From the IMG/VR virus record IMGVR_UViG_3300005664_000136, positions 1 to 20,421 of that record: a DNA stretch of 20,421 nt; one strand, written 5' to 3'. Under the pieces are notes generated by a model. That model did no database searches and was not told the DNA's origin. It saw only the letters and a program-made list of their open reading frames with translations. Each line of letters begins with the position of its first letter. Within the stretch, counting starts at the first letter, position 1. This document shows positions 5,004 through 17,619 of this stretch, in pieces. The translations under genes and the position numbers were made by a program. This DNA comes from a virus.

Positions 5004-5504
5004 ATGGATAAACAAATTCTATTAGAAAAATATATTAAAGTTGCTGTTCGTAAAGCACTTAAAGAACAAGAAGAACAACAAAAACGAGCTGAAAAGTCTC
5101 TATATTTAATTTATCGCTTTCCTGGTCTTAAAAAATTAATGGAAGATTTAATGTCTCCAGTTTTTGGTCGTTTTTTAAAACATGTAGATATTGTTGCTCC
5201 TAAACCAACAACATTTGATGTTAAATTAATCAACGGACAAGACTTTACTATAATCTATGTTGGTAAAGGAAATTTTACAGTTAAAATAGCAGGTAAAAAA
5301 TATAATCCAAATAATTTAGGTGAATTAGAACGCGCTTCACAATCAATAGCTGATTTATTACAATTAAATTATGCACCTGAAGAAGGTAAAGAGCAACCAG
5401 CATCTAATAGTGGAGAAGAAATAGGTAAAGATTTAGCAGCAGCCGAAAAAGCACCAGCTGAAGCGCCTGAAGAAAAACCAGCTGAAGAAGAAACTCCAGC
5501 TTAA
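5004..5504 (+). CDS. Leader-bearing phage protein with acidic Ala/Pro/Glu tail
   Basis: This 166-residue protein starts with MDKQILLEKYIKVAVRKALK, then E-Q, an amphipathic helix with L-K-E/Q at residues 19-22 as a possible cleavage site. Residues about 33-125 form a compact alpha/beta domain with RFPGLKKLMEDLMSPVFGRF and FDVKLINGQDFTIIYVGKG. From about residue 126 to the end it is a low-complexity acidic tail of Ala, Pro and Glu. I recognise the middle domain only as a recurrent phage hypothetical, without a function. Together with the next leader-bearing gene at 8332 it brackets the homing-endonuclease insertion. Confidence 0.8.
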   Translation: MDKQILLEKYIKVAVRKALKEQEEQQKRAEKSLYLIYRFPGLKKLMEDLMSPVFGRFLKHVDIVAPKPTTFDVKLINGQDFTIIYVGKGNFTVKIAGKKYNPNNLGELERASQSIADLLQLNYAPEEGKEQPASNSGEEIGKDLAAAEKAPAEAPEEKPAEEETPA

Positions 5505-5545
5505 ATATAACATATAGACAGATTCATAGCCTAAAAAGTCTTCAT

Positions 5546-5553
5546 ATATTTAT
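5546..5553 (+). promoter_or_regulatory. ATATTTAT motif at left edge of the insertion
   Basis: This octamer is followed by TG, so the ten bases ATATTTATTG are repeated exactly at 8308-8317 beyond the intact homing endonuclease. It lies at the loop side of the 13-bp inverted repeat. Confidence 0.3.
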
Positions 5554-5561
5554 TGGAAATA

Positions 5562-5569
5562 ATATTTAT
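5562..5569 (+). promoter_or_regulatory. ATATTTAT motif overlapping an ATG
   Basis: The second octamer in this gap. Its last two bases are the AT of the ATG at 5568. Most of it lies in the hairpin loop, so transcripts starting here would lack the left arm and could not form the hairpin. Confidence 0.35.
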
Positions 5570-6119
5570 GAAGACTTTTATTTATTTGTTAAAAAATTGT
5601 TATGGAGATCCCAATAAAGTTTATATTTGTCTAACTTTTAAAACCTAAAAGTCTTTAGCTTTTAGGTACTTCACTAATATTAAAGACCAAGATGGAAATA
5701 TCTTTACAGAAGAAACTAAACAAAAAATAAGTTTAGCTAAAAAAGGGCACAAATGTTTCACACATGAATGGAGAAATAAAATAAGTAAATCATTAAAAGA
5801 AGGAAACCATTCTCAATATTATACTAATGATATTAAAGAAAAAATATCTAATAAATTAAAAGGAGTTTCTAAAAATTTTAGTAAAAAACATTTAGAAAAT
5901 TTGGCTAAAGCAAATTTAGAATCAAAAGGAAAAATAGTAGAATGTTATGATTTAAATGAAAATTTTATTAGAGATTTTTCTTGTTTAAGAGAAGCTAAAA
6001 TTTGGCTTATTGAAAAAAAGTCAATACATTCCCCCAATATAGATAAACAAATAAAAGATTGTTGTAATGGTCGCCAAAAAACATGTCATGGGTTTAAATT
6101 TAAATATAAATATAAATAA
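5568..6119 (+). pseudogene. Degenerate GIY-YIG homing endonuclease with NUMOD3/NUMOD1-type tail
   Basis: ATG 5568 opens a frame starting MKTFIYLLKNCYGDPNKVYI, a GIY-YIG beginning, which stops at TAA 5646-5648 after 26 codons. The same frame then stays open to 6119. That part reads as homing-endonuclease DNA-binding modules: FTEETKQKISLAKKGH, HEWRNKISKSLKEG and IKEKISNKLKG (NUMOD3-like), then IVECYDLNENFIRDF up to NGRQKTCHGFKFKYK (NUMOD1-like). The tail matches the layout of the intact enzyme at 7525. About 70-100 residues of the nuclease domain, including the catalytic Arg and Glu region, are absent between the two parts, so this is an internal deletion plus an in-frame stop. A TTG at 5901 could start a 72-residue remnant, but it need not be expressed. 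Confidence 0.8.
5643..5667 (+). other. 9-bp hairpin at the deletion point of the homing endonuclease
   Basis: ACCTAAAAG (5643-5651) and CTTTTAGGT (5659-5667) form a perfect stem with a 7-base loop, and the in-frame TAA is inside the left arm. The left arm also repeats part of 5530-5542 (CCTAAAAAGTCTT there, CCTAAAAGTCTT here). The hairpin may mark the deletion or insertion junction or be a displaced terminator; its role is unclear. Confidence 0.5.
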
Positions 6120-6137
6120 TAAAATAAAATAAAATAT

Positions 6138-7481
6138 ATGAAAAAACAAAAAATATGTGTGGTGGGAGCCGGAGTAGCAGGAATGTTCGCTGTAACCAAA
6201 CTTATAAACAATAACTATCCAGGTGAGTTAATTACTGTTATAGATGCCGGAAAAGACCCCCATAATAGATCCCCAGAGGAAGTAATGAAAGGAGGATTTG
6301 GAGCAGGACTTTTCTCTGATGGTAAGTGGTCATATCTTCATAATGCTGTGGGAGGTCAACTTGCCAAATATACGGGTGAAGAAAAAGCAAACCAAATATT
6401 AGAAGAAGCATGGTCTTATATTCTTCGTTTCCACCCAGATCCGTCAAAAATTATGTTCTCTAAACCAACAGAAGAACCGGAATTTATTAAACCATATTTT
6501 AATTTGAGAATGGCACCGGCTTACCATATAGGTACAAATTATCTTCATGATTTAGGTAAAAGATGGTATGATTGGTTAGTTGAGAAGGGTATTAAATTTG
6601 AATGGAATATTGAAGTCAATGATGTTGATTTTAATAATCAAACTGTAAATAGAAGTAAAATAGAATATATAGATGGTCAGAAAGTAACAAAATTAGTAAA
6701 TTTAGTAGATTTAAAATTTGATAAACTAATTTATGGTACTGGTAAATCAGGAATTGATTTAACTCAAAAACTTATAGATAAGTATAATTTAAAAAAAGAA
6801 CCTAAATCAGTTCAACTTGGGGTTCGTATGGAGTTACCTCAAAAATATATGCAATCAATAGTTGATATTGCGTATGATTTTAAATTATATAAACGTCATA
6901 ATGAAAAAGTTTCTTCACGTTCATTTTGTAGCAATAACTATGCTGCATATGTTGCTGAAGAGATTACTTATGATATGAAATCATATAATGGTCATAGTTA
7001 TAAACAAGAAAATATGATTAATAATATGACTAATTTTGGTATTATTATGGAAATTAAAGGTATTAATAATCCATTTCAATTCCAAAAAGATGTAGTATCT
7101 AAATGTCAAATAGATGGTAAAGGAATACATTATTCTCCTAACTTTACTCGAAAACCTTCATTAACTTCTGGTGGAGATAATATGAATGTTATTAGTGTTG
7201 GTAATTTGGATTTATTTAAAGAAATTTATAAAGAATATGCTGATTATATAATTAATTATATTGAAGATTTAAATAAAGTATTTAATTTTGATAATGATTA
7301 TTCATTATATATTCCTGAAGTAAAATTCCTTAGTGAAGAGGTTTTGACCTCAAATAATTTTTCATTATATGATTATCCTAATATTTATTTTGTTGGTGAT
7401 GCATTAAGTGCTCGCGGAATAGCAGTAAGTGCAGCTCAGGGTGTATATGCATCAGAAAAAATTCTTAAAATGTTGAAGTAG
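6138..7481 (+). CDS. FAD-dependent oxidoreductase (COG2509-like)
   Basis: This 447-residue flavoprotein has a Rossmann start, KICVVGAGVAGMFAV, with the G-x-G-x-x-G dinucleotide loop at residues 10-15 and an acidic residue, Asp36, ending the second strand. GGFGAGLFSDGKWS at 52-65 resembles the GGxGxFSDGKL signature of uncharacterised FAD-dependent dehydrogenases grouped as COG2509. The C-terminus NIYFVGDALSARGIAVSAAQ is the usual second FAD-binding motif (GDA). The length is close to full and no frameshift is seen. The substrate is unknown. It has no leader peptide, unlike the neighbouring virion-type genes, and is bracketed by two homing-endonuclease genes, so it probably arrived with them. 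The start follows an AAAAT-repeat tract with no Shine-Dalgarno sequence. Cytoplasmic action during infection is inferred. Confidence 0.85.
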   Translation: MKKQKICVVGAGVAGMFAVTKLINNNYPGELITVIDAGKDPHNRSPEEVMKGGFGAGLFSDGKWSYLHNAVGGQLAKYTGEEKANQILEEAWSYILRFHPDPSKIMFSKPTEEPEFIKPYFNLRMAPAYHIGTNYLHDLGKRWYDWLVEKGIKFEWNIEVNDVDFNNQTVNRSKIEYIDGQKVTKLVNLVDLKFDKLIYGTGKSGIDLTQKLIDKYNLKKEPKSVQLGVRMELPQKYMQSIVDIAYDFKLYKRHNEKVSSRSFCSNNYAAYVAEEITYDMKSYNGHSYKQENMINNMTNFGIIMEIKGINNPFQFQKDVVSKCQIDGKGIHYSPNFTRKPSLTSGGDNMNVISVGNLDLFKEIYKEYADYIINYIEDLNKVFNFDNDYSLYIPEVKFLSEEVLTSNNFSLYDYPNIYFVGDALSARGIAVSAAQGVYASEKILKMLK

Positions 7482-7505
7482 AAATGTATTTTCTGGGATT
7501 ATTAT

Positions 7506-7513
7506 ATATTTAT
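7506..7513 (+). promoter_or_regulatory. ATATTTAT motif upstream of the intact homing endonuclease
   Basis: The octamer lies in the 43-base gap between oxidoreductase and endonuclease and ends 11 bases before the ATG. Its extended form TATATTTA also fits the TAnnTTT part of the Bacteroidota -7 promoter box. Confidence 0.35.
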
Positions 7514-7524
7514 AAATAAAATAT

Positions 7525-8304
7525 ATGATAATTTATTTGACTACTAATTTAATAAATAATAAAAAATATATAGGAAGTACTAATAATAATAATCCTTACT
7601 ATTTAGGAAGTGGAGTATATCTTAACAAAGCTATTAAAAAATATGGTAGAAAAAACTTTAAAAGAGAAATATTAGAAACAGTTTCAAACTTAGAAGAGTT
7701 AAGAAAAAAAGAAGAATATTATATAAAATTATATAATGCAATTAATAGCAAAGAATTTTACAATGTGTCTAAAAAAGGAGTAGGAACTAAACCTGGATAT
7801 AATTCAAAAATTTATACTGAGGAGAGAAATAAGAAAATAGGGTTAGCTCATAAAGGACAAAAAAGATACGAAGGATTAGGAATCAAAATTAGTGAAAAAA
7901 CAAAAAATAAACCTAAACCTCCTAGAACCAAAGAACATAATGAAAAAATAGGTTTATCTAATAGAGGAAAATCTAAATTACCAATGAAAGAAGAAACTAA
8001 AAATAAAATTAAAAATTCAAAAATTGGGATTAAACAACCTAATATTGATAAGTCCAAAAAAGGTTATAAAATGTATAATCAGGAGTGGAAAGATAAAATA
8101 AGTAAATCATTAATAGGTAAACATAAAAACTATTTAGGCCATCATAAACCTATAATTCAATATGATCTTCAAGGTAACTTACTTAATGAATACCAATCAG
8201 CACAAGAAGCAGGTAGATACTTAAATAAATCAGGTAATAGTATAGCAGATTGTGCTGCCGGTAAACAAAAAACAGCTTATGGTTATAAATGGAAATACAA
8301 ATAA
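7525..8304 (+). CDS. GIY-YIG homing endonuclease with NUMOD3 repeats and NUMOD1 tail
   Basis: This 259-residue protein has an N-terminal GIY-YIG nuclease domain: IIYLTTNLINNKKYIGST (IIY at 2-4, YIG at 15-17), YLGSG at 26-30, KKYGRKNFKREILE at 38-51 and the catalytic-type Glu in EEYYIKLYNA near residue 63. Four NUMOD3-like DNA-binding repeats follow at about 97-110, 135-149, 155-168 and 186-199 (pattern T/K-E-E-x-x-x-K-I-x-x-S-x-x-G). A NUMOD1-like module at about 209-248 (IIQYDLQGNLLNEYQSAQEA) ends in AYGYKWKYK. All expected parts are present in order, so it is probably active. It cuts DNA lacking the element and so promotes its spread. The modules match those of the broken copy at 5568. Confidence 0.93.
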   Translation: MIIYLTTNLINNKKYIGSTNNNNPYYLGSGVYLNKAIKKYGRKNFKREILETVSNLEELRKKEEYYIKLYNAINSKEFYNVSKKGVGTKPGYNSKIYTEERNKKIGLAHKGQKRYEGLGIKISEKTKNKPKPPRTKEHNEKIGLSNRGKSKLPMKEETKNKIKNSKIGIKQPNIDKSKKGYKMYNQEWKDKISKSLIGKHKNYLGHHKPIIQYDLQGNLLNEYQSAQEAGRYLNKSGNSIADCAAGKQKTAYGYKWKYK

Positions 8305-8307
8305 TAA

Positions 8308-8315
8308 ATATTTAT
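8308..8315 (+). promoter_or_regulatory. ATATTTAT motif, candidate promoter element
   Basis: Four bases after the endonuclease stop and 16 bases before the ATG at 8332. With the two following bases it repeats the decamer found at 5546. Confidence 0.35.
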
Positions 8316-8331
8316 TGACAAACGTACAATA

Positions 8332-8583
8332 ATGACTAAAGATCAATTACGCGAAGCAATCCGCGCTGTTATTAGAAAAGAATTAGCTGAAGTACAACCA
8401 GCAGTAGCACCAACTAAACCATCACCTGGCCCTGCTATACATCCTGGAAAACCAGATACAGGTAAACCAAAACCTCGTCGCCCATTAGGAAATCCAGGTG
8501 TAAGTCCAAAACCAAAAGCTACAATGACTGAAGCTGAAATGCTAGCAAAGATTATTAAACGTTTTAGAAAAGCAAAAAAATAA
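8332..8583 (+). CDS. Small Pro-rich basic protein with leader peptide
   Basis: This 83-residue protein starts with MTKDQLREAIRAVIRKELAE, then Val, an amphipathic helix with L-A-E/V at residues 18-21 matching the prohead-protease rule. Residues about 22-60 are Pro/Lys/Gly-rich (PSPGPAIHPGKPDTGKP, PRRPLGNPGVSPKPK). The end is a basic helix, MTEAEMLAKIIKRFRKAKK. I recognise similar small phage proteins but no function. Its size and basic charge suit an internal head protein that binds DNA, which is inferred. Its stop overlaps the next start as TAATG. Confidence 0.8.
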   Translation: MTKDQLREAIRAVIRKELAEVQPAVAPTKPSPGPAIHPGKPDTGKPKPRRPLGNPGVSPKPKATMTEAEMLAKIIKRFRKAKK

Positions 8584-9602
8584 TGGCAAATCTCTTAGAA
8601 GTAGAATACGAGAAAATATTCTCCCCTAAAACTATGGCTGCTTTAAAAGGTAAGTCAGGTGAATCTTTACGTCAAATGCTTGGTAATAAAGATTTGATGC
8701 AAACATTAATGCGATCTAAAGCAGTATTAGATGAAATTATTGATGCTGAAGAAGGATATCGTGATGAATTAGAAATGATTGCTGCTATAATGGCAACAGA
8801 TGCTTTTCCAATTATTGACTATGCAAACATCAAAATAGATGCTAAAATAACAGGACCAGAAGATTTAAATGTTGAAATAGAACCAGGTGAAGAAGATCCA
8901 TTACAACCTAGCTTTGATGATGATACTGAAAAATTAAAAGCAAAACGCCGTATCATAAACGGTATTACACAGGGCGCATCAGTTAGAGGAGCATTTAGTT
9001 TCTACTTATTCAGAGAATACCTTGATGATATTAATCCGGCATTAGTAGAAAAATATAACGAAATATTAAAATCGGTATTCGGAATATACGATGATGAAAA
9101 CGCTATTGCGATGATGCTTGCAGCACTAGCTCAAGGACAAAAAATGGAAGGTGGTACAAGTGAAATGGTGTATGATGAAGAAAACGAACAATTTGTTATT
9201 AAAGCAAGAGCATTATGTTTTCCCATGCTGTTACACGAAATTGTAAAAGGATTATACGAAATCGTTGGTACAGAAGGATTTGGTGCTGATAAAGAAAAAA
9301 ATAAAGCAATTATAAATGCTGTAGATAAATTATCTAATGAACCAAACGATTTTCGCTTCGGTAAATTCTTATATGATGCTATTACTAAATTATATAATGA
9401 AAGTGATTTAGATGATGCACGTATTCGTGAATTATTCTTTGCTGAATTATATAAATTAGAAGAAGACGAGTTCTTATCATTTGTAGAAAATGCTGTTAAT
9501 GATGAATTAACTCCAGAACAAAAGAGATGGGCTATCAATACAATGAAAGATATTGAACGCGACTTGAAAAAAGACGATACTGGATTAGCTGATTTAGACT
9601 AA
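8583..9602 (+). CDS. Conserved phage protein with HEIVKG motif, function unknown
   Basis: This 339-residue acidic, mostly helical protein has NGITQGASVRGAFSFYLFRE at residues 126-145 and ARALCFPMLLHEIVKGLYEI at about 208-227. The FPxLLHExVKG segment recurs in T4-like phage proteins of unknown role, as I recall. HEIVK has the start of a zincin motif but lacks the second His (HExxK, not HExxH), so a protease call is not justified. There is no leader peptide. Translation is coupled to the Pro-rich gene by the TAATG overlap. A weak hairpin terminator follows the stop. Confidence 0.8.
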   Translation: MANLLEVEYEKIFSPKTMAALKGKSGESLRQMLGNKDLMQTLMRSKAVLDEIIDAEEGYRDELEMIAAIMATDAFPIIDYANIKIDAKITGPEDLNVEIEPGEEDPLQPSFDDDTEKLKAKRRIINGITQGASVRGAFSFYLFREYLDDINPALVEKYNEILKSVFGIYDDENAIAMMLAALAQGQKMEGGTSEMVYDEENEQFVIKARALCFPMLLHEIVKGLYEIVGTEGFGADKEKNKAIINAVDKLSNEPNDFRFGKFLYDAITKLYNESDLDDARIRELFFAELYKLEEDEFLSFVENAVNDELTPEQKRWAINTMKDIERDLKKDDTGLADLD

Positions 9603-9940: not shown

Positions 9941-10243
9941 ATGAGAGGTAGACCACCAAAAGAAATTACACTACAAGAAAATCCAACTAAATTTAGTCGT
10001 ACTTATGAAGATGAATATACTACTGAGGTATGGACATTTGATTTAAATAAATCACCATATGGCCCTATCAGCGTAGATATTAAATATAAAGCAGGTGCTG
10101 AAAAAAAGATAAAACAAGAGATTAAGGAAGCTAAACAACAGAAGAAGATAGCTCGTCAAATGAAAAAAATAAATAAGCAAAATGAAAATAGGACTAACAG
10201 GAACCGTGTCGGTAGGAAAAACGACACTAGTAAACGCTCTTAA
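9941..10243 (+). CDS. Small basic protein with AT-hook-like N-terminus
   Basis: This 100-residue protein begins MRGRPPKEI, where RGRPPK is the core of an AT-hook, a minor-groove DNA-binding motif. A short folded part follows, with EDEYTTEVWTFDLNKSPYGP and ISVDIKYKAG at about residues 25-58. After that comes a Lys-rich helix (KKIKQEIKEAKQQKK) and a basic tail. The tail (residues about 81-100) is read from the same DNA as the start of the kinase gene in another frame, a 62-base overlap. The start is the first ATG after the terminator. DNA binding is inferred from composition. The function is unknown. Confidence 0.7.
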   Translation: MRGRPPKEITLQENPTKFSRTYEDEYTTEVWTFDLNKSPYGPISVDIKYKAGAEKKIKQEIKEAKQQKKIARQMKKINKQNENRTNRNRVGRKNDTSKRS

Positions 10244-10703
10244 AGAGTTAGAACAATTCAAAGGATATGAAATAGCAACTGAACGTAGTAAATATCTACG
10301 CGATCAAGGTATAGCATTAAATACTGATTCAACATTGAAAGGTCAAATAGTGTTCGCTGCTGAACGTGCTTTAGAGTTAATGAAACCAAATATTATCACT
10401 GATAGAACAATATATGATGTAATAGCATTTACACTCAGCGCTAAATCAATTAGTAAATTTGAAAAACGTCATTTTTTCGATTTAATGTTGGATTTACGTA
10501 ATGAATATGATGTTGTTATTTATGTATCACCTGAAGGTGTTGATATAGAAAATAATGGTGTACGTGAAACTAATGCTGATTATCGTACAGAGATTGATGA
10601 AATTATACGTGAATTATTAAAAGCACATCCACCTAAGAAACTTATTGAAATTAAAGGTTCAACAGAAGAACGCATAAACACTATTACCTCACAACTAATC
10701 TAA
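10182..10703 (+). CDS. P-loop NTPase, AAA_28/NadR-like kinase family
   Basis: This 173-residue protein starts MKIGLTGTVSVGKTTLV, a Walker A loop (G-x4-GKTT) at residues 7-15. ATERSKYLRDQGIALNTDST near 35-54 and IITDRTIYDVIAFTLSAK near 70-87 match the layout of small P-loop proteins of the AAA_28 type, which includes NadR-like and nucleoside/nucleotide kinases. DVVIYVSPEG near 109-118 is the usual strand plus lid region. A small-molecule kinase role, for example in nucleotide or NAD metabolism, is likely, but the substrate cannot be told. The start is fixed by the P-loop lying seven residues in, so the 62-base overlap with the upstream gene is real if both are translated. Confidence 0.82.
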   Translation: MKIGLTGTVSVGKTTLVNALKELEQFKGYEIATERSKYLRDQGIALNTDSTLKGQIVFAAERALELMKPNIITDRTIYDVIAFTLSAKSISKFEKRHFFDLMLDLRNEYDVVIYVSPEGVDIENNGVRETNADYRTEIDEIIRELLKAHPPKKLIEIKGSTEERINTITSQLI

Positions 10704-14110: not shown

Positions 14111-15685
14111 ATGGCAGAACAACCCAATATAAAAGAAATAATTAAACAGGAATATATCAAATGTGCGATGGATCCTGTACATTTCTTTCGCAAATATTGT
14201 TATATTACTCACCCCGTTAAAGGTAGAGTATTATTTCATTTATATCCTTTCCAAGAGGATGTATTAAACGATTTTAGGAATCATCGTTTCTCTATTATAA
14301 ATAAGTCCCGACAGTTAGGTATCTCTACCTTATCTGCTGGTTATGCTTTATGGACAATGCTATTTAATAAAGATAAAACTGTGTTATGTATAGCAACAAA
14401 ACAAGAAACGGCAAAAGGTATGGTTGAAAAAGTACAATTTATGTACAATAACTTACCTAATTGGCTTAAAGGAAGTCAAAAACCAATCTCAGATAACAAA
14501 TTATCACTTAAACTAGCTAACAACTCTCAAATTGTAGCTACATCAGCCGCATCAGATGCAGGTAGATCTTACGCAGTATCTTTACTAATAATAGATGAGG
14601 CTGCTTTCATTGAAGGTATTGATAAAATATACACAAGTATTAAACCAACCATTGCAACGGGTGGAGGTATTATAGCATTATCCTCTCCAAATGGTGTTGG
14701 TAACTGGTTTCATAAAATGTACACTGAAGCTGAGGTTAACAAAAACGATTTCAAAGCAATTAAATTAAGATGGGATTTACACCCAGATAGAGATAGTAAA
14801 TGGGAAGAAACAGAACGAGCAAACATGTCAGCACGTGAATTTGCTCAAGAGTATGACTGTGACTTCTTAGGTTCCGGTAATTCATTAATTGAACCCGATA
14901 ACTTAACTTTTTATGAACAAACTTTTGTACAAGAACCTGTGGAACGCCGCTTTATGGGTGGCGACTTTTGGATATGGAATTATGCAGATTATAGTAAACA
15001 ATATATTGTTTGCGCTGATGTGGCTCGAGGAGATGGCAGTGACTACTCAGCATTTCATGTTATTGATATCGAATCATGTGAGCAAGTAGCAGAATATAAA
15101 TCACAAATTGACACAAGAACATTTGGTAATATGTTAGTTTCTGTTGCAACAGAGTATAACAATGCTTTGTTAGTAGTAGAAAACGCTAACGTAGGATGGG
15201 ATGTAGTAAATACTATTATAGAAAAAGGATATCAAAATTTATATTATTCACCTCGCGCATATGGCGAATTGAATATTGATAAATGGATGGCTAAAATGGA
15301 TAGTGAGCAAACAGTTCCTGGATTTACCACATCAGCTAAGACAAGACCACTTGTTATCTCAAAACTAGAGGCGTATATTCGAGATAGACATTTTATATTT
15401 AGATCAAAACGACTATTAGAAGAATTAAGAGTGTTTATTTGGCAAAATGGAAAAGCACAAGCGCAAAATGGTTATAATGATGATTTAGTTATGGCATTAG
15501 GTATTGGATTATTTACAAGAGATACTGGAGTAAAATTTTATCAACAAGGCGTAAATTTACAAAGAGCAGCTTTAAATAATATTTCTAATAACAGTAGTCC
15601 AATTACATTATTGCCTAACGATGCTCAAAACCCATACCAGATCGAAACACCATATGGTGTTGAAGACCTACGTTGGATGTTATAG
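14111..15685 (+). CDS. Terminase large subunit (T4 gp17-like DNA-packaging motor)
   Basis: This 524-residue TerL has an ATPase and a nuclease domain, as in T4 gp17. Tyr45-Pro-Phe-Gln48 is the adenine-binding Q motif. Walker A is deviant: KSRQLGIST (65-73), with the lysine at the front and Ile-Ser where T4 has Lys-Thr, as in terminases whose lysine sits at the start of the loop. Walker B is LLIIDEAAF (158-166, Asp162-Glu163), and SSPNG (191-195) is the coupling motif. The RNase H-like nuclease has Asp303 in CADVARGDGSDYS, Glu357 in VVENAN and Asp457/Asp458 in NGYNDDLVMA, the expected metal-binding set. It pumps DNA through the portal encoded next door and cuts the concatemer. The small terminase is not seen here. 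Confidence 0.96.
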   Translation: MAEQPNIKEIIKQEYIKCAMDPVHFFRKYCYITHPVKGRVLFHLYPFQEDVLNDFRNHRFSIINKSRQLGISTLSAGYALWTMLFNKDKTVLCIATKQETAKGMVEKVQFMYNNLPNWLKGSQKPISDNKLSLKLANNSQIVATSAASDAGRSYAVSLLIIDEAAFIEGIDKIYTSIKPTIATGGGIIALSSPNGVGNWFHKMYTEAEVNKNDFKAIKLRWDLHPDRDSKWEETERANMSAREFAQEYDCDFLGSGNSLIEPDNLTFYEQTFVQEPVERRFMGGDFWIWNYADYSKQYIVCADVARGDGSDYSAFHVIDIESCEQVAEYKSQIDTRTFGNMLVSVATEYNNALLVVENANVGWDVVNTIIEKGYQNLYYSPRAYGELNIDKWMAKMDSEQTVPGFTTSAKTRPLVISKLEAYIRDRHFIFRSKRLLEELRVFIWQNGKAQAQNGYNDDLVMALGIGLFTRDTGVKFYQQGVNLQRAALNNISNNSSPITLLPNDAQNPYQIETPYGVEDLRWML

Positions 15686-15720: not shown

Positions 15721-17619
15721 ATGGCTGAAGAAAAAAATAATAATGCGGGCACTGGTTTATTTAGTAGGTTAACCCGTTTATTCAGTACAGATGTAGTAAT
15801 CAGAAATGTTGGTGGAAACCAATTAAAAGTAGTAGATACAGACCGTATCCAAGCATATGGTAACGTAAAAACCAATGCTTTAATTGATAGATTTACAAAA
15901 CTTCATCGTTATGGTGCTAATATGCCATATAACCCAACGATGAACTATCAAACACTTCGTATTCAGTTATATACTGACTATGAAGCAATGGATACGGAAT
16001 CAATTATTGCTTCTGCTCTCGATATAGTAGCTGATGAAACAACATTAAAAAATGAAGCAAACGAAGTAGTACAGATTAAATCATCAGATGAAAATATCCA
16101 ACGTATACTTTATAACCTATTCTATGATATATTAAATGTTGAGTTTAATTTATGGATGTGGGTTAGAAATATGTGTAAATATGGTGATTTTTATTTACAC
16201 CTTGAAATAGCTGAAAAATTTGGTGTATATAATGTAACACCAATGTCTGTTTATGATATGGTACGTGAAGAAGGTATGGATCCTCAAAATCCATCTTACG
16301 TATGTTTTAAAATTGATCCAATGGTTATTGCCGCTGGTGGTATCAATAGCCGTGTTAAAGATAGAGATGGTAAAATCAAATTTGAAAATTACGAAATTGC
16401 TCACTTCCGTCTATTAACAGATGCTAACTACCTTCCTTATGGCAGATCATTTATAGAACCAGCTCGTAAAACTTATAAACAATATATTTTGATGAAGGAT
16501 GCAATGCTCTTGCATCGTATCACCCGTGCCCCGGAAAAACGTGTATTTTATGTTGACATAGGTAATATGCCTCCTGCTGAAGTTGATGCTTACATGGAAC
16601 GTTTAAAGCAAAAAATGCAAAAAACACCATACATCGATAAAAATACAGGTGAATATAACTTGAAATATAATATGATGAATGTAATGGAAGATTTTTACAT
16701 TCCTCAACGTGGTGCTAACTCAAACACTAAAATTGATACAATCAAAGGTTTAGAGTATAATGCAATAGAAGACGTAAACTTCTTACGTGATGAAATGTTA
16801 GCTGCATTAAAAGTACCTAAAGCATTCTTTGGATTTGAAAAAGATTTAACTGGTAAAGCTACATTAGCTGCTGAAGATATTCGTTTCGCTCGTACAGTAG
16901 AACGTATTCAACGTATTGTATTAAGTGAATTATATAAAATAGCATTAGTACACTTATATGTTCAAGGATATGATGGTGAATCATTAGCTAATTTTGAATT
17001 ACATTTATCTACACCATCAGTAATTTATGAACAAGAAAAAGTAGCGCTATGGAAGGAAAAAATTGCATTAGCTAAAGATATGCAAGATAGTAAATTAATT
17101 CCTTCTGACTGGATTTATAATTTCTTATTCCAATTCAGCGAAGATCAATATGATGAATTACGTGATTTAGTTGCTGAAGATATGAAACGTAGCTTTAGAT
17201 TAGGTCAAATTGAAAACGAAGGTAATGATCCAGCAAAATCTGGTAAATCATATGGTACACCTCATGATTTAGCCACATTATATGGTGCTGGAAGATATAA
17301 TGGAGCTAAAAAATCAGATGTTCCTCCAGGATATGATGAAGATCGCCCAGTTGGCCGCCCTAAAGAAAAATCATCTATGATTGGTACGCAAAACGACCCA
17401 CTAGGTAAAGATAGATTAGGTAGAGAAGAAAATGGTACATTATATACTGCAAATAAACCTGAAGAAAATGGTACACCTAAAGGCGGTTCTCCATTAGCAT
17501 TAGCTGAATCTTTACGTCTTAAAGATATGTTTAAAACCATACCTAGAAAAGATAAAGATATGGTGTTTGGTGATGATGAGCCTACACTATTAAATGAGGA
17601 AAATATTAGAGACATATAA
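15721..17619 (+). CDS. Portal protein (T4 gp20-like)
   Basis: This 632-residue protein is longer than T4 gp20 (524). The core has gp20-type segments: YEAMDTESIIASALDIVADE near 83-102, an NLWMWVRNMCKYGDFYLHLE region near 143-162, HFRLLTDANYLPYGRSFIEP near 228-247, HRITRAPEKRVFYVDIGNMP near 266-285, then PQRGANSNTKIDTIKG and MLAALKVPKAFFGFEKDLTG near 359-378. Portals form the dodecameric ring at one head vertex that starts prohead assembly, carries the terminase and joins the tail. The extra C-terminal part (about 500-632) is Gly/Lys/Pro-rich and includes GRPKEKSS and SPLALAESLRLKDMF; it is probably flexible. It follows TerL directly, without the tail sheath and tube genes that separate the two in T4. 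Confidence 0.95.
   Translation: MAEEKNNNAGTGLFSRLTRLFSTDVVIRNVGGNQLKVVDTDRIQAYGNVKTNALIDRFTKLHRYGANMPYNPTMNYQTLRIQLYTDYEAMDTESIIASALDIVADETTLKNEANEVVQIKSSDENIQRILYNLFYDILNVEFNLWMWVRNMCKYGDFYLHLEIAEKFGVYNVTPMSVYDMVREEGMDPQNPSYVCFKIDPMVIAAGGINSRVKDRDGKIKFENYEIAHFRLLTDANYLPYGRSFIEPARKTYKQYILMKDAMLLHRITRAPEKRVFYVDIGNMPPAEVDAYMERLKQKMQKTPYIDKNTGEYNLKYNMMNVMEDFYIPQRGANSNTKIDTIKGLEYNAIEDVNFLRDEMLAALKVPKAFFGFEKDLTGKATLAAEDIRFARTVERIQRIVLSELYKIALVHLYVQGYDGESLANFELHLSTPSVIYEQEKVALWKEKIALAKDMQDSKLIPSDWIYNFLFQFSEDQYDELRDLVAEDMKRSFRLGQIENEGNDPAKSGKSYGTPHDLATLYGAGRYNGAKKSDVPPGYDEDRPVGRPKEKSSMIGTQNDPLGKDRLGREENGTLYTANKPEENGTPKGGSPLALAESLRLKDMFKTIPRKDKDMVFGDDEPTLLNEENIRDI

Follow-up and report, generated by a model that had tools for sequence, protein, structure and literature searches.

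The DNA analyzed here (the window) is a 20,421-nucleotide viral sequence, IMG/VR record IMGVR_UViG_3300005664_000136, a 20.4 kb piece of a T4-like phage genome with the terminase at 14111 and the portal at 15721. It carries a gene for a COG2509-type oxidoreductase dependent on flavin adenine dinucleotide (FAD), called the flavoprotein below, between two genes of the GIY-YIG homing-endonuclease type (table 1). Comparison with related phages suggests, with a probability of roughly 0.7, that resident flavoprotein alleles have been replaced recurrently at a homing hot spot, with the endonucleases as likely drivers. The hot spot would be the flavoprotein gene itself: a free-standing endonuclease would cleave the sister allele of another phage infecting the same cell, whereupon repair would copy the endonuclease together with the flanking flavoprotein gene, displacing the resident allele. 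Repeated rounds of such replacement, which we infer to be driven by the endonucleases, would explain why the gene is nearly always present yet its alleles ignore phage ancestry.

Two main allele types, A and B, were found in the phage group. Judged from sequence identity, the window allele is foreign to its backbone, because it is 80–82% identical to A-types (81–82% to those of L001, L004 and L056, whose TerL is just 55–56% identical to that of the window) and only 54–56% identical to the B-types of its own backbone kin, though the TerL of these kin is 72–85% identical. Over 52 shared loci, identity correlated with TerL identity at r = 0.14 for the flavoprotein, compared with 0.90 for both the portal and g17594; the values for the AAA_28 NTPase and g9652 were 0.69 and 0.62. 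The TerL-group label changed 10 times on the flavoprotein tree, against once each on the portal and TerL trees and three times on the NTPase tree; on the trees of g9652 (44 loci) and g17594 (37 loci) it changed four times and once, respectively. The preliminary description of this DNA had named a tree following the phage core genes as evidence against its cargo idea, and the flavoprotein does not follow them.

Placement of the window allele was also assessed with six approximately unbiased (AU) tests. Grouping with any of five B-type subclades that include backbone kin was rejected (p from 8e-6 to 4e-40); these five tests were run after the result of the first, on a position just outside A and its sister group C, had been seen. 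For pairs of similar alleles on different backbones, similarity ended near the ends of the open reading frame (ORF), or near the ends of an operon partner (Pyr_excise) plus the ORF.

Endonuclease genes were concentrated around the flavoprotein. In flavoprotein-bearing loci, 27 of 45 endonuclease genes lay within 250 bp of the flavoprotein ORF, where 2.9 were expected and the maximum in 200,000 simulations of random placement was 12. TerL, portal, g8583, g17594 and others had 0–2 endonuclease neighbors. The NTPase had an endonuclease upstream in 7 of 102 cases, partly the same genes, where the NTPase follows the flavoprotein. A frequent endonuclease position was between a leader RNA (described below) and the ORF, with the stop codon 11–20 bases before the ORF match; other genes lay just downstream of, or inside, the flavoprotein gene. 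Most were of the GIY-YIG type and occasionally HNH. Endonucleases flank a B-type allele on both sides in L101, as they do the A-type allele of the window.

The two window endonucleases differ in state. The downstream gene combines GIY-YIG and NUMOD domains outside any intron, whereas the upstream gene lacks an intact catalytic domain: its ATG at 5568 is followed by an in-frame TAA at 5646, YIG has become YIC, about 55–60 aa of the catalytic core are gone, and the NUMOD tail remains open to 6119. The start of the broken gene resembles that of the intact gene upstream of the flavoprotein in L004 (ENCYGDPNKVYIGKT vs KNCYGDPNKVYICLT), and its tail is 64% identical to the endonuclease upstream of the flavoprotein in L101. 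A strong 10-bp hairpin at 5643–5667, CCUAAAAG...CUUUUAGG, contains the premature stop and lies at the deletion point. In the window, an A-type allele sits in a slot where the kin hold B-types; in the history proposed, the upstream endonuclease decayed afterwards, and the leader RNA stops after its first loop.

Scars of earlier alleles were found in several relatives. In L004 an A-type gene is accompanied by a C-terminal scrap adjoining an HNH gene; this scrap matches B-type sequences at 91% identity and A-type sequences at 66%. L023 combines a full gene with a GIY-YIG gene and a 98% B-type tail. A further C-terminal scrap was detected in L014 and an N-terminal one in L038. Moreover, in four loci (L039:13485-15672, L043:15646-17549, L045:13684-15882 and L163:about 1010-1610) inserted ORFs interrupt the flavoprotein gene near residue 172. 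The inserts code for leader-bearing proteins, and that of L045 holds a GIY-YIG gene; in L039, L043 and L045 the C-terminal half carries an ATG of its own. In the window's own flanks no displaced-allele scars were found, the weak matches there being low-complexity noise, and no useful repeats were seen around the cassette. It was also observed that L010 and L011, which have near-identical flavoproteins and identical TerL, differ in the downstream endonuclease (L010:2012-2701 and L011:5907-6035), intact in one and a 43-residue stub in the other.

The main alternative, which we consider unlikely, is that the endonucleases are passengers. The gene would then be swapped by ordinary homologous or illegitimate recombination, which selection acting on the enzyme or the conservation of its DNA would favor, and this conservation would be the reason why endonucleases settle beside it. 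In its favor, many exchanged alleles are now free of endonucleases (e.g. L066/L084 and L016/L063), and strongly conserved stretches are common to the alleles. However, the portal and TerL are conserved too, yet they are neither swapped nor colonized by endonucleases, and scars and split genes adjoin endonucleases in several loci.

Several points nevertheless weigh against replacement driven by the endonucleases, or against the details of it. Much the same picture would arise from ordinary recombination if endonucleases built up passively next to a conserved gene. The endonucleases counted were only those resembling one of about ten local queries; several of these queries had been picked beside the flavoprotein, which inflates the contrast with other genes. 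The end of exchanged tracts at ORF ends is expected anyway, since intergenic DNA diverges fast. The first AU test did not reject a position of the window allele just outside A and C (p = 0.117), and the allele may be mosaic near its C-terminus, where GDALSARG looks B-like. The closest sampled donor is only about 82% identical, so that either the event lies far back or its donor is missing from the sample.

The preliminary description took the oxidoreductase to be a new metabolic gene carried in as cargo between the endonucleases by intronless homing. The endonucleases on both flanks and the foreignness of the allele to its backbone agree with this, and what stands of the proposal is that free-standing endonucleases bracket a gene whose tree conflicts with the core genes. 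As an account of gene gain it is very improbable and largely refuted by the distribution of the gene. Among relatives collected with g8583 as query, and hence independently of the flavoprotein, nearly all whose contig reaches far enough have the gene. All 14 loci with the window gene order (the window included) hold it between g5004 and g8583, so the direct g5004–g8332 junction predicted for cassette-free lineages occurred in none of them. In a separate TerL-based sample, 20 loci had 6.5 kb or more of upstream sequence, and 11 of them carried the flavoprotein; the nine loci without it belong mostly to one separate TerL clade. Five longer records (54–162 kb) of these nine loci, searched whole, lack the gene, and so does L030.

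On the TerL tree, which pools TerL-sampled and flavoprotein-collected loci and thus shows the distribution of presence rather than its frequency, presence or absence of the flavoprotein changes three times, never within the window's clade. The gene is present in all 28 phages of this clade, mostly at the same position and in many cases with no endonuclease, so an allele moved and no metabolic gene was gained. Relatives carrying the oxidoreductase without endonucleases, which had been named as evidence against the cargo idea, are for the most part what is seen: in L016–L018 and others the gene sits at the same place with no endonuclease, as is expected of the target gene in intronless homing.

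The host of the window phage is likely a member of the Bacteroidota, because the nearest portal from a complete named phage is that of Flavobacterium phage vB_FspM_immuto (58%) and contigs of the phage group were found in metagenome-assembled genomes (MAGs) of Flavobacteriaceae and Flavobacteriales. In 119 of the 395 host-class genomes scanned, the sole close relative of the flavoprotein was on a phage-like contig in one MAG. These results show that the flavoprotein is a native, long-standing, single-copy gene of a large T4-like phage group, probably with Bacteroidota hosts, and not a recently captured host gene. As to the donor, which the preliminary description proposed to find from a tree, the source of the foreign A-type allele would be another phage lineage, since the host-class genomes yielded no close relative beyond the phage-like contig and the leader pattern just once, unstructured. 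A third possibility, that A- and B-types are old paralogs differentially lost and the discordance is hidden paralogy, draws on the deep split between the types (about 45% amino-acid difference) and on the B-type scrap beside the A-type gene of L004, but is the least probable of all, as no locus or whole record holds two full copies (the long records with the gene have one each) and discordance is strong inside type B as well, with 85–87% identity across TerL groups.

The leader RNA was discovered from 62 motif places in the first set of loci, which led to an element of 105–115 nt. It consists of a stem P1 with the invariant loop AUUCAUAGC, an A-rich linker, a second stem P2 (NNN-AGCUGUGGC-N'N'N') and a terminator-like hairpin, seen in folds. 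This hairpin is built in part from GUGGC and the 3' strand of P2, and a U-run often comes after it. P1 and P2 covary strongly, with 98.9% of cells paired and a covariation of 0.375, compared with 0.117 ± 0.010 in shuffled and at most 0.068 in slid alignments. A kissing loop is predicted between CAUAGC (P1 loop) and GCUGUG (P2 loop), near-invariant columns that give little covariation evidence.

A covariance model, trained on 47 sequences from these and other loci, found the leader in 77 of the 84 flavoprotein loci with enough upstream sequence, before the gene or its operon; in ten loci without the flavoprotein it found none. An independent test was provided by a pattern scan of IMG/VR, in which the exact pattern favors canonical copies and some loci come from contigs already in the sample. 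The next recognized gene at the 114 loci found was the flavoprotein in 94, its Pyr_excise partner in nine, an endonuclease and then the flavoprotein in four, and one other gene and then the flavoprotein in five; two ended with the contig. A search of Rfam 15 with three complete elements at permissive thresholds gave nothing near gathering score, and a scan of 395 host-class genomes with the leader pattern gave one match (G117), attributed to chance as the stem was absent. The leader is apparently a structured RNA that has not been described before and that is tied to a single gene.

On the strength of a conserved, covarying structure next to one gene, the leader is a candidate cis-regulatory RNA, and its anatomy would suit a riboswitch or an attenuator. 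We lean slightly against, though we keep as a tentative proposal, the further step that it is a new phage-borne class of metabolite- or protein-sensing attenuator dedicated to the flavoprotein, behind which endonucleases insert, so that it controls them and they travel with the gene. In the window the leader breaks after the first loop; the 3' half (the rest of P1, P2 and the terminator-like hairpin) is missing, and the covariance model gave no match there. Extra 5' halves in two loci (L001:7296 and 7876; L128:4587 and 5893) and second full copies in two others (L038:6238 and 6870; L079:6446 and 7883) bracket inserted genes. This pattern looks like modular insertion at the leader element.

Unlike psbA, which comes from cyanobacteria, the flavoprotein of the current study belongs to a divergent branch in phages and has no recent cellular donor. 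In both cases a free-standing endonuclease adjoins an auxiliary metabolic gene, F-CphI lying beside psbA in cyanophage S-PM2 according to the accounts available (PMC6083498; Zeng et al. 2009, as cited in PMC2993671). Intronless homing by free-standing endonucleases is known from T4 (SegA-G and MobE), where the target gene usually adjoins the endonuclease, and the present loci share with that system free-standing GIY-YIG or HNH genes beside a conserved phage gene, degenerate endonucleases and split genes; the split flavoprotein recalls nrdA of phage Aeh1, split by mobE (PMC2988022). In contrast to T4, endonucleases of several types here converge on a single non-virion gene, that of an oxidoreductase, throughout a phage group, cleavage being presumed; the alleles of this locus are swapped in large excess and have left scars. 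Riboswitches have been described as rare in phages, and the glutamine riboswitch of methylophage Melnitz is likewise a conserved structured cis element tied to one gene (PMC9004378); the leader found here differs in its predicted kissing loop, its terminator-like hairpin, its specificity for the flavoprotein gene or operon and the lack of a match in Rfam 15.

While intronless homing and endonucleases beside auxiliary genes are already known (PMC2988022, PMC2993671, PMC6083498), what is new is how extensively one core gene is swapped, along with a leader RNA of its own that appears to be undescribed. The locus offers a measurable natural case, in which a near-universal phage gene has had its alleles shuffled between lineages far more than its neighbors, with endonucleases concentrated there and scars left behind. 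Homing endonucleases have been proposed to spread flanking genes among T4-like phages (PMC2993671), and this proposal is directly testable here. The leader RNA, moreover, offers a practical way to find out what the widespread COG2509 enzymes of phages respond to.

The identification of a COG2509-like flavoprotein between a broken and an intact GIY-YIG gene was confirmed by the ORFs and by Pfam, PHROG, profile and fold matches. The window protein matched the PHROG 12409 'dehydrogenase' (E=5.5e-20), and a profile of the phage family aligned with cellular COG2509-type proteins (hhalign probability 99.4%, E=1.9e-21, 28% identity over 258 columns). A PDB sequence search with the window protein gave no match, and profile and fold comparisons were used instead. 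The AlphaFold model (predicted TM-score, pTM, 0.83) had as its top Foldseek match VP0956 of Vibrio (PDB 3nlc; E=7.4e-19, TM 0.70 by query length). The cellular proteins have this same structure as their solved relative (E=4e-109), and we take it to be representative of COG2509. The phage protein shares with these dehydrogenases the Rossmann FAD motif and a GAGxxSDGK motif. It is classed as a divergent branch of phage proteins with kinship to COG2509 and not as a canonical member, because at about 440 aa it lacks the N-terminal domain of some 80 residues that precedes the Rossmann motif in cellular members; this motif, at residue 5, aligns to position 83 of the cellular profile. Distant homologs (about 26% identity) occur in Campylobacter T4-like phages, although in phage NCTC12673 the gene slot differs. 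A literature search for COG2509 in phages found no paper.

In many relatives a PF03013 (Pyr_excise-like) gene, missing from this slot in the window, precedes the flavoprotein. It often overlaps the flavoprotein start, which suggests that the two form an operon. The overlapping gene (MNIFYI...) was seen in L009, L011, L015, L021, L029, L046 and others.

Table 1. Features at and around the flavoprotein gene of the window.
Feature	Position	Strand	Remarks
g5004, left flank phage gene, leader-bearing	5004..5504	+	conserved upstream neighbor in relatives
Leader RNA 5' half (5' strand of P1 and invariant loop ATTCATAGC)	5509..5532	+	exact motif 5512-5531, 0 expected by chance
Hairpin 3' of the cut leader, containing the start codon of the broken endonuclease	5534..5579	+	minimum free energy -16.1 kcal/mol, z -3.9
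Broken GIY-YIG homing-endonuclease gene	5568..6119	+	premature stop, catalytic core deleted, NUMOD tail kept
COG2509-type FAD-dependent oxidoreductase, A-type allele	6138..7481	+	447 aa, intact ORF
Intact free-standing homing-endonuclease gene, GIY-YIG + NUMOD1	7525..8304	+	both Pfam domains above cut-off; PHROG 314 E=1.5e-31
g8332, right flank gene	8332..8583	+	same neighbor in same-order relatives
g8583, conserved right flank gene	8583..9602	+	query for collecting relatives; 41 relatives

An Rfam scan of the window found no RNA family at gathering score, and with no Rfam match there was no sign of a group I intron. Among named phages searched for a DNA-level match to the locus, just short endonuclease matches were obtained, in Staphylococcus phages. 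The surrounding genes had been described as a virion-protein run, which could not be established, the nameable neighbors being the terminase, the portal and the AAA_28 NTPase, together with leader-bearing proteins. Four window genes, at 108, 4000, 12047 and 12621, have similar starts (76–82% identity over 34 bases; MIKLxxxLxEI), indicating a repeated N-terminal leader. The NTPase (10182-10703) and the flavoprotein co-occur in the TerL sample, both being present in 11 of 11 loci and both absent in nine of nine. In L057:14311-17130 and L058:12549-15269, inserts of about 1.1–1.2 kb break the TerL matches, perhaps through an intron or endonuclease insertion.

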